37,727 bases of DNA from Gillisia sp. GTDB lineage: Bacteria > Bacteroidota > Bacteroidia > Flavobacteriales > Flavobacteriaceae. The stretch covers positions 1-37,727 of the forward strand of contig JAGXIJ010000116.1 in NCBI GenBank assembly GCA_024635675.1, given 5' to 3'. Shown piece by piece: positions 21,310 to 32,966 of this stretch (position 1 is its first letter; each line of letters opens with the position of its first letter). The notes under the pieces were generated by a model that ran no database searches, was not told the origin of the DNA, and saw only the letters and a list, made by a program, of their open reading frames with translations. The translations under genes and the position numbers were made by a program.

Positions 21310-22032
21310 ATGAAACCCAAGAAAAATCCGAAAGCCGATTTAACAAAGCGTAGCGTTCTCTTTCTTCAGCTAGGGCTTATTTTAGTCCTATTTATTGCAT
21401 GGCAAGCTATAGAATGGAAAACATACGATAAAGATGATATAAATCTTGGTCAATTAGACCTAGGTGATTTAGATGATGAAGAAATTCCGATCACGTAAAT
21501 TCTGAACACACCACCACCACCACCACCACCACCACCAGCACCAGAAATTATCGAGGTTGTTGAAGATGAGGAGGAAGTAGAGGAAGATATTATTGAGTCT
21601 ACAGAAACAAATCAAGACGAAATTGTTGAGGTTAAAGAGGTTGTGGAAGCTCCGGTAGAAGAAGTGATTGCAGATGTTCCATTTGCAGTTATTGAAAACG
21701 TGCCAATTTACCCGGGATGTGAGAACTTAAGCAATAACGACCAACGTAAGAAATGTATGAGTGAGAAAGTACAAGAATTTGTACAAAGAAAATTTAATAC
21801 AGATCTAGGTAGTCAATTAGGATTATCGGGAGTTAACCGTGTGATCGTGCAGTTTAAAATAGACAAGAATGGTAATATTACAGATGTTCGTTCTCGTGCT
21901 CCACACCCAAGGTTAGAGCAAGAAGCAGCAAGAGTGATAAATTCTTTACCTAAAATGCAGCCAGGTAGACAGAGAGGTAAGCCAGTAGGGGTTATGTACT
22001 CTTTACCAATTGTATTCCAAGTACAGGATTAA
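21310..22032 (+). pseudogene. tonB: TonB energy transducer with an in-frame TAA stop
   Basis: The frame from the ATG at 21310 encodes a TonB: a cytoplasmic N-terminus, one membrane helix (VLFLQLGLILVLFIAW), then an acidic stretch ending in EEIPIT. A TAA at 21496-21498 interrupts it. The same frame then runs on without another stop through ILNT, nine prolines, an acidic Glu/Val-rich linker and the complete TonB C-terminal domain (ENVPIYPGCE, VQFKIDKNGNITDV, GRQRGKPVGVMYSLPI) to 22032. Without the TAA it would be a normal 240-residue TonB, linking the proton motive force to outer membrane receptors. A GTG at 21643 could start a fragment, but it would lack the membrane anchor. Possible causes are a true nonsense mutation, a base-calling error or stop-codon read-through. 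TonB is usually important for growth, so an error or a second tonB elsewhere should be considered. Confidence 0.85.
21511..21537 (+). repeat. (CCA)9 microsatellite coding nine prolines
   Basis: Nine uninterrupted CCA codons encode the proline run of TonB, 12 bases after the internal TAA. Such a pure repeat is prone to slippage in replication and to sequencing error. Confidence 0.9.
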
Positions 22033-22168: not shown

Positions 22169-24271
22169 ATGAAATATTTTGGATTTCTACTTCTATATTT
22201 TATTTCCTTCAATACTTTCTCTCAGGATGGATTTTCTGAATTTGAAACTTATCCGGTTTTTTCGGAATGTTCAGAAATGGATTTTAATGCAGAAGAAGCT
22301 TGTTTTAAAAACACCCTGATGAAATTGGTGACTGAAAACTTTCAGTTACCGGCAAAGGTTTCCGAAGAGAATTATAAAGGAGAAGCTGTGGTGTTGTTTG
22401 AAGTAACCAAAGAGGGGACTTTCAAACTTCTTTATGTAGATGCTATTTATTCTGAATTAAAAGATGAGATAAAGCGGGTCTTTAATGAATTACCAACCAT
22501 TTCTCCGGCTACATATAATGGGAAGCCGGCATATGCGCAATTTAGAATGCCACTACCTATTCCTTTAGTATATAATGAATTGGTAGCTCCAGAGGAGAAA
22601 ACAACAATTGCTACACAATCTAAACAGGTAGAAAAGCCAAATGCACTTACAGAATACGATAACATTGTATCTAAACCCTTTGTAAGTAAAGTTTCTTCTA
22701 GTAATTTATTTGTTCCGCTCTCTCATGAGAGGTATAATAGATTTGATGCTGAAATGAATAGAATTGGCAACAACAGTCATACAGCTACCAAGCCATATTT
22801 ATATAGCGAAGTTTCTAAATATTACGATTTTGACTCTGAATTTGAAAAGGGGAAGGAGAGAAGTACTTGGGCTGGCAAGAAAATATGGGATGAGCATTTA
22901 GTTACTTTTCAAGGAGAGAATTACTGGTTTACTGGAGATTTAGTTTTGGATCTTCAACTTGGTAAAGATTTTCAAAGTGATGTGGCATTTACTTATAATA
23001 ATACACGAGGTGCAATTTTTCAGGGAGGACTGGGCGAGAACTTTAACTTTTATACTGTTGTATTTGAAAGTCAAGGAAGATTTGCAGATTATTTTAATAG
23101 ATATGCTGAAAGTATTGGGCCGTTTGGTGGTAACCCGGCGACAGTTCCTGGAAGAGGGATAGCAAAGGAATTTTTAGAAGATGGATATGATTTTCCGGTT
23201 GCTGAAGGATATTTGTCCTATAAAGTTTCAGATTTTTTTAATGTGCAATTTGGGCATGGGAAGAATTTTATAGGTGATGGATACCGTTCTTTATTGATGA
23301 GCGATATTGCTAGTCCGTATCCTTATTTCAAATTAAACACGAGTTTCTGGAAGCTAAAATATACCAACACTTTTATGTCTATTCGCGATGTGAGGGGAGA
23401 GGTAGTCGAGGAAGGTTCTTATAGAACAAAATTTATGGCAAATCATTATTTAAGTTTAAACTTAACTAAGAGATTCAACCTTGGATTGTTCGAATCGGTG
23501 GTTTGGCAAAACGAAAATGGTCGTGGCTTTGATGTAAATTATTTAAATCCTGTTATTTTTTATAGATCTATCGAGTTTTCAACTGGTGCCAGAGGTGGTA
23601 ATGCAATTATTGGGGTTACAGGTAAATATAAATTGAGCGATCAGGTAAATCTTTATGGGCAATGGATCATCGATGAATTTTCAACTGAAAAGATCTTTGG
23701 AGGAAATCAAAGTTGGAAAAATAAGTTGGGGTATCAGTTAGGGGTGAAATATTTTGATGCCTTTAATGTCCCAGATCTTTATTTGCAGGTAGAATACAAT
23801 CAGGTTAGGCCATACACTTATTCGCATAATTCTGTGGTTCTTAATTATGGTCACAATAACCAGTCGCTGGCGCATTTATGGGGAGCTAATTTTAGGGAGA
23901 TCATTGGAATTGCCAGATATAGGCGAGACCGAATTTTTGGAAGTGCTAAATTGATCTATGGGAAACGTGGATTCGATTTTGATGATGGGTCGGACGATAG
24001 GTATTATGGCGGGAATATTTACCGTAATGAACGCGACCGGGCATTCGAAGATGGAGTAAAAATTGGACAGGGAAATACCACTACTACCTTATTTGCTGAA
24101 CTGGAAGCAGGATATATTATAAATCCTGTAACTAATCTTAAGCTTTTTGGAAGCCTCATTTATAGAAATTTTGATCCGCAGGTAAATACCGATCTAGTCT
24201 TTAAAGAAAACACGGTGTGGTTTAATGTTGGGTTGCGAACAGATATATTTAACTGGTATTATGAATATTAG
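22169..24271 (+). CDS. remB: RemB-like outer membrane protein with N-terminal TonB-C-like domain
   Basis: This 700-residue protein has a signal peptide of about 18 residues (cleaved near NTFSQ) and a domain at about 25-135 that looks like the TonB C-terminal domain. That domain shows YPVFSECSE, a second Cys 11 positions on, GEAVVLFEVTKEGTFKLLYV, and YNGKPAYAQFRMPLPI. A linker and a long beta-rich region of the Wzi/capsule-assembly barrel type (about 220-700) follow, ending on alternating aromatic residues. Proteins of this type beside sprA are annotated as gliding motility protein RemB in Flavobacterium; the name here rests on gene order and overall look recalled from memory. The place in the outer membrane is well supported. 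The exact role, in motility or surface polysaccharide, is not shown by sequence. It has its own promoter between the tonB terminator and the start codon. Confidence 0.72.
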   Translation: MKYFGFLLLYFISFNTFSQDGFSEFETYPVFSECSEMDFNAEEACFKNTLMKLVTENFQLPAKVSEENYKGEAVVLFEVTKEGTFKLLYVDAIYSELKDEIKRVFNELPTISPATYNGKPAYAQFRMPLPIPLVYNELVAPEEKTTIATQSKQVEKPNALTEYDNIVSKPFVSKVSSSNLFVPLSHERYNRFDAEMNRIGNNSHTATKPYLYSEVSKYYDFDSEFEKGKERSTWAGKKIWDEHLVTFQGENYWFTGDLVLDLQLGKDFQSDVAFTYNNTRGAIFQGGLGENFNFYTVVFESQGRFADYFNRYAESIGPFGGNPATVPGRGIAKEFLEDGYDFPVAEGYLSYKVSDFFNVQFGHGKNFIGDGYRSLLMSDIASPYPYFKLNTSFWKLKYTNTFMSIRDVRGEVVEEGSYRTKFMANHYLSLNLTKRFNLGLFESVVWQNENGRGFDVNYLNPVIFYRSIEFSTGARGGNAIIGVTGKYKLSDQVNLYGQWIIDEFSTEKIFGGNQSWKNKLGYQLGVKYFDAFNVPDLYLQVEYNQVRPYTYSHNSVVLNYGHNNQSLAHLWGANFREIIGIARYRRDRIFGSAKLIYGKRGFDFDDGSDDRYYGGNIYRNERDRAFEDGVKIGQGNTTTTLFAELEAGYIINPVTNLKLFGSLIYRNFDPQVNTDLVFKENTVWFNVGLRTDIFNWYYEY

Positions 24272-31704: not shown

Positions 31705-32966
31705 ATGTTTAGTAAAGATAACTGGAGCGAAATAATAGAAGCACTAACCTCTAACTGGTTTAGAACGATTCTCACTGCGTTTGGAGTGCTATGGGGTATC
31801 TTTATATTGGTTATTCTGCTGGCTGCAGGAAAAGGATTGGAGAATGGAGTAAAACAAGGTTTTGGGGGAATTGCTACTAACTCTATGTTCATGTGGGCAC
31901 AAACTCCTTCGAAACCATATAAAGGCTTGCCAAAGGGGCGTAGCTATAATTTTAAGATAAGCGATGTTGAAGCTATTAAGCAAAATGTACCGAATCTTCG
32001 TTTTGTATCACCTAGAAATCAATTAGGAGGTTTTGGGGGAGCAAATAACGTGGTACGTGGACTTAAAACTGGAGCTTTTAATGTTTATGGGGATTATCCT
32101 GAAGTGATTCAGCAAGAACCTATGGATATTACCTCGGGAAGGTTCGTGAATTATTCCGATATAGAACAAAATAGAAAAGTAGCAATTCTTGGGGCGGGTG
32201 TTATAAATGACATGTATGATCCTGGGGAAGAAGTTATAGGCTCTTATATCAAGGTTAATGGAGTAAACTTTATGGTGATTGGGACCTATAAAAAGAAGGG
32301 AAATAACGGAAATCCAGAAGAGAATCAAAAACAGATCTACGTGCCATTCACTGCCTTTTCTCAAGCATTTAATATGGGAGAAACCGTAGGTTGGATGTCT
32401 ATAACTGCCGAGGACGGCTCTTCTATCACCGATTTAAAAACTCAGATTTTCGATGTTATAAAATCCAGACATACTATTCATCCAGAAGATGATAGGGCTA
32501 TTGGTAATTTTGATCTTTTTCAGGAGTTCAGCAAGATCAACGGATTTTTGTGGCCTTAAAAGCGGTTGCTTATTTCGTAGGGATCTTAGTGTTGCTTTCA
32601 GGAATAATCGGGATCTCTAACATCATGCTTATTGTGGTAAAAGAACGAACCAATGAAATAGGAGTTCGAAGGGCATTAGGCGCAACACCTTGGGATATTA
32701 GGGGACAAATATTAATGGAGTCTATATTTTTAACTATTATTTCCGGGATGGCAGGTATTGTACTAGCCACAGGAATTATTGCCTTGGTAAATGGGCAATT
32801 AGAAGGAGTAGACACTTCTGAAATGATGTTCGCTAACCCCAGTGTAGATCTGGGAGTAGTATTTATTGCCCTTAGTATTTTAATTATATCGGGATTATTG
32901 GCTGGGTTAATTCCTGCACAAAATGCAATTAAAGTTCAACCGGTAGATGCGCTTAGAACAGAATAA
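31705..32966 (+). pseudogene. MacB-type ABC permease, second copy, broken by a -1 frameshift
   Basis: The first frame (31705-32559) encodes helix 1 (FRTILTAFGVLWGIFILVILL) and the whole periplasmic domain, then ends at NGFLWP-stop. A second frame (32550-32966) carries on with ALKAVAYFVGILVLLSGIIG, KERTNEIGVRRALGA and the last two helices. Adding one T to the five-T run at 32545-32549 would join them as NGFFVALKAVAYFVG, giving a full permease of about 420 residues like its neighbour. As written, the product would lack three helices and the coupling motif. It may be a real frameshift, a phase-variable tract or an error in a homopolymer. The neighbouring genes are intact. Confidence 0.87.

Follow-up and report, generated by a model that had tools for sequence, protein, structure and literature searches.

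The tonB gene of the window (the whole stretch of 37,727 nucleotides that was analysed) carries a single in-frame TAA, which we interpret as a wrong base in a fragmentary draft assembly or as a minority variant, the gene of the population being intact (probability about three in four). Such an error or variant would have entered the draft at a Glu codon of tonB and turned it into TAA, tonB remaining whole in the source population. Judged by alignment, none of the other sequences compared carries the stop, and the split gene most likely represents no biological novelty.

The translated tonB frame lies on the forward strand (21310–22032), starting with the ATG at 21310 and ending at a natural TAA at 22030–22032. 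The interrupting TAA is flanked by EEIPIT and ILNT-(P)9, and the parts on either side of it are listed in Table 1, the membrane anchor having been read off the sequence by eye and not with a prediction tool. The post-stop part scores 44 bits against Pfam TonB_C (PF03544), above the cut-off of 24.6, and 24.7 bits against NCBIfam TIGR01352, below the cut-off of 27.1; no solved structure was matched by sequence to the C-terminal part at E 0.01, and no paper on the locus was seen among those listed in a literature search. The description of the split gene given by the first-pass annotation was right in its coordinates, the TAA, its flanks, the 177 sense codons and the natural stop all being recovered on re-reading, and the TonB domain that it placed after the stop is borne out by the Pfam match. 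Anchor, linker and C-terminal domain are not found in a single product of the assembled gene, due to the TAA at codon 63; they are joined in one product in each of the 15 same-genus orthologues, although the C-terminal end of one (G014) is shifted. With these 15 copies 81–97% identical to it residue by residue, the frame can be taken as a real gene, and it is an ordinary flavobacterial tonB of a Gillisia-type bacterium.

Table 1. Positions in the window of the split tonB and of the second broken gene
Feature	Coordinates	Strand	Description	Basis
tonB, pre-stop part	21310..21495	+	62 codons; cytoplasmic tail, membrane anchor, short periplasmic stub	translation; relatives collinear
In-frame TAA, codon 63	21496..21498	+	Glu codon (GAA/GAG) in 15/15 same-genus relatives	
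tonB, post-stop part	21499..22032	+	proline-rich linker and TonB C-terminal domain, 177 codons and natural stop	
MacB-type ABC permease, second broken window gene	31705..32966	+	1-base indel near 32544; ORFs 31705–32559 and 32550–32966	

TonB was searched for in 60 genomes, including that of the window, and a match was obtained in 57. Each of the same-genus genomes (G001–G015) has a collinear tonB copy, none of the 15 with an internal stop, and the gene is open throughout in all of them except G014. The GAA or GAG that these relatives carry at the site supports the origin by a single substitution proposed earlier, and the alignment with tonB of related Flavobacteriaceae, which the first-pass annotation had suggested as a check, leaves the stop confined to the window. 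Among named relatives, the window TonB is closest to those of Gillisia sp. CAL575, G. mitskevichiae and G. lutea, which on the strength of this one gene makes Gillisia (Flavobacteriaceae) the probable genus. A residue survey at the stop column covered 110 loci, which gave 106 usable sequences, some of them possibly from duplicated genomes; Glu occurs in 57, Gln in 41, Asp in 4 and Asn in 1, two sequences give no reading, and the only stop is that of the window, so that none of the 103 other sequences read has one. The sprA-linked TonB of Flavobacteriaceae (Gillisia and, by sequence, Christiangramia, Salegentibacter, Zunongwangia and others) has the same length, order of parts, proline run and C-terminal domain as that of the window, with best-match identities of 51–72% across the family's 21 other-genus genomes, one of these matches being of partial length. 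The window gene differs from them in the in-frame TAA, where the relatives mostly have Glu or Gln. Compared with seven close relatives, the private changes of tonB amount to two non-synonymous and no synonymous before the stop and to one non-synonymous and five synonymous after it; in these small numbers the part after the stop appears to show no sign of decay. In G014, tonB (G014:C1:3857823-3858509) has a frameshift near the C-terminus and finds its normal ending in the next frame; this may be a further error or may indicate that damage to the gene can occur.

The window is the whole of contig C12 of a 2.2 Mb draft (2,209,458 bases in 160 contigs, 66.49% complete), and tonB is not its only damaged gene. 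In a 21-gene block around tonB compared with seven relatives, of which G013 covers only part, the draft of the window has two broken genes, tonB and the MacB-type permease, the latter whole in the six relatives with covering stretches (G002, G004, G006, G007, G009 and G015). The same block has no broken gene in G002, G006, G007 and G015, and one gene in two frames in each of G004 (COX3-like) and G009 (sprA). Genes outside the shared block were dropped, and so were those mechanical ORFs, short or in reverse frame, that several genomes have in interrupted or partial form (for example G006_+29298_118, G006_-15708_138 and G007_+15178_101). Stops in a 785-aa ORF of G004 and G009 were not counted either, being located within the first 20 residues, ahead of the Met shared by the relatives.

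A further stop, a TGA at C160:1208, lies inside leuS, the only leucyl-tRNA synthetase gene found in the incomplete draft; the other synthetase matches fall under the LeuRS family cut-off and were taken to be the enzymes for Val, Met and Ile. No stop occurs in the leuS matches of G001–G008, and G009 gave no match above the cut-off. The gene spans two contigs whose ends have exactly 141 bases in common, the sole such pair among the 70 contig ends inspected, and this overlap is probably the mark of short-read graph assembly at an unresolved branch, the assembler being named nowhere. A cell could not work with leuS interrupted mid-gene by a TGA, unless the missing third of the genome supplies a second copy. 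Since a broken sole leuS is impossible in living cells, false or minority-variant lesions are very probably present in the draft. The leuS stop is a lesion of the same kind in a gene that must be intact, accompanied by indels in the permease and in a PBP1A-family gene, and we infer that the tonB stop is to be classed with these other single-base lesions. The first-pass annotation had called the stop recent or an artefact, which stands, and the broken permease in the window together with the broken leuS moves the weight toward an artefact or minority variant.

The lesions were also counted in a wider sample of 40 contigs or parts of contigs of the draft, window included, comprising 568,191 of the 2,209,458 bases (26%), against a reference of 1016 mechanical ORFs from 1,236,499 bases of the relative G015. 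Matches were obtained for 183 of these ORFs, on 17 of the 40 contigs or parts: 157 intact, 16 at a contig edge, 8 with a stop, 1 with a frameshift and 1 partial. The count excludes the edge rows and also the partial row, which is a paralogue matching tonB itself. On inspection, four of the nine flagged interruptions were judged real lesions, all in conserved genes: the tonB TAA, the leuS TGA, the permease indel and a 1-base indel near C105:8595, close to the N-terminus of the PBP1A-family penicillin-binding gene (490 bits, family cut-off 509). The rest were rejected by eye, four stops (C105:7912, C105:18397, C118:18211 and C113:22545) as located in the N-termini of extended ORFs, before the likely start, and one (C113:25048) as located in a short ORF taken for antisense. 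In the reverse control, ORFs of the draft against G015, 177 were matched, three were flagged and one more was partial; two of the three flags are N-terminal extensions, and the third is a likely pseudogene in G015, the homologue of ORF C34:2496, with two in-frame stops (near G015:C1:127651-128022). The lesion rate is 4/161 in the draft versus 1/174 in G015, a difference that is not significant (Fisher p = 0.20), and the result is the same with the rejected rows scored as intact. A search of the draft for rpoB and rpoC gave no match.

Regarding the error load, private substitutions were counted in the same 21 genes, over 8628 codon columns shared by seven genomes. The window has 144 non-synonymous and 265 synonymous ones, a ratio of 0.54, the six relatives ranging from 0.28 to 0.69, and its private substitutions are not enriched in G-to-T or C-to-A. 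The load is thus modest, there being neither a private non-synonymous excess nor a G-to-T excess. Stop-creating changes make up 4.4% of the single substitutions in the tonB frame (95/2151). In the CAMI II study (PMC9007738), the assembler with the fewest mismatches on the marine data has 67 per 100 kb, and 548 and 486 mismatches per 100 kb are given for unique and common marine genomes, respectively. At 67 per 100 kb and 4.4% stop-making, by simple arithmetic, about one false stop would be expected in a fully coding window of this size; this equals the number seen and, as far as the figure holds, would be too few to shift the non-synonymous/synonymous ratio. The single-base lesions of short-read metagenome assemblies are likewise private and isolated, lie in an undecayed frame and come with further lesions in conserved genes, here including leuS. 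The window differs from them in having no overall private non-synonymous excess, and this, like the non-significant difference in lesion rate, speaks against the preferred reading.

The first-pass annotation had also proposed looking for other tonB genes, and an intact one was found. There are four TonB_C matches in the draft. Besides the window tonB, these are a full-length TonB of 237 aa at C3:5956-6666, 51% identical to that of the window; a weaker match on C34, which at 22.5 bits stays under the cut-off; and, on C113, a short protein whose start resembles a signal peptide. The latter was considered as a second broken TonB and rejected, the listed TAA being the small protein's own natural stop. 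Among the matches listed, a full-length TonB paralogue of 50–60% identity is present in at least 8 of the 15 same-genus genomes (G003–G008, G011 and G015). Several TonB copies per Bacteroidota genome are nothing unusual; multiple Ton systems are described for Bacteroides thetaiotaomicron in one report (PMC12204202). The G009 paralogue (G009:C1:187946-188590; 51% identical) has one TAG and two TAA in the matched stretch. The draft has eleven TonB-dependent receptor barrels above the Pfam cut-off and one below it, and since eleven remain, some TonB presumably works.

These copies bear on the main rival reading, which we consider rather unlikely, in which the stop is a real and very recent null allele, tonB being lost and the C3 paralogue energising the outer-membrane receptors. 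The 62-residue product would then anchor in the inner membrane without the linker and the C-terminal domain. A single substitution is enough for this, and the intact second TonB, the paralogues of the same-genus genomes and the remaining receptors all fit it; so does the TonB damage in the assemblies of relatives, where the G014 frameshift and the stops of the G009 paralogue can be read either way. The openness of the gene in 14 of the 15 same-genus genomes, the undecayed sequence 3' of the stop and the leuS lesion of the draft, which no living cell could have without a second copy of the gene, argue against it. A recent nonsense pseudogene has the same single substitution and the same intact remaining frame, and here looks identical to an artefact. 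That a fixed nonsense mutation has just deprived a natural Gillisia population of its sprA-linked TonB, leaving it to live on the paralogue, is, in our estimate, quite improbable. The first-pass annotation had held that a real stop would make the cell dependent on another TonB, on read-through or on suppression; of these, another TonB is possible with the C3 gene, and read-through and suppression are unsupported.

Read-through or suppression of UAA would yield a full-length TonB from the gene as assembled, which would account for the undecayed frame beyond the stop; we regard it as very remote. A conserved stop at the column is seen in none of the 15 same-genus relatives, the other sequences read having E, Q, D or N instead, a UUA anticodon is found in none of the 19 tRNA hits of the incomplete draft, and TAA terminates 17 of the 24 window ORFs counted. 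Scarcely credible is a two-part TonB with the C-terminal half made separately from an internal start. A GTG-started ORF of 129 codons (21643–22032) is available for it, but its product, as read from the sequence, would have no membrane anchor or signal peptide, and the gene is split in no same-genus relative.

The preferred reading, an assembly error or a minority variant, matters mainly as a warning: when an incomplete draft shows a single in-frame stop, the condition of the essential genes in the same draft should be considered before any claim of loss, read-through or recoding. A real and fixed stop would amount to a natural knock-out of a TonB present in 15/15 same-genus genomes examined, and such a loss, if true, would show that the conserved sprA-linked TonB is dispensable in the wild.

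Upstream of tonB are ruvA, sprA (2794 bits against NCBIfam TIGR04189), gcvH and a VanZ-like gene (28.3 bits, under its cut-off). Downstream there is a 700-aa gene, followed by UbiA and COX3. The placement of tonB beside sprA, from which the first-pass annotation had suggested that it may serve envelope machinery, is common to the seven same-genus relatives with compared stretches, and the genes flanking tonB on either side are intact in the draft. The 700-aa gene, directly 3' of tonB (22169–24271), has no Pfam or NCBIfam match and is found in all seven same-genus relatives compared; read by eye, its N-terminal part resembles a TonB_C-type domain.
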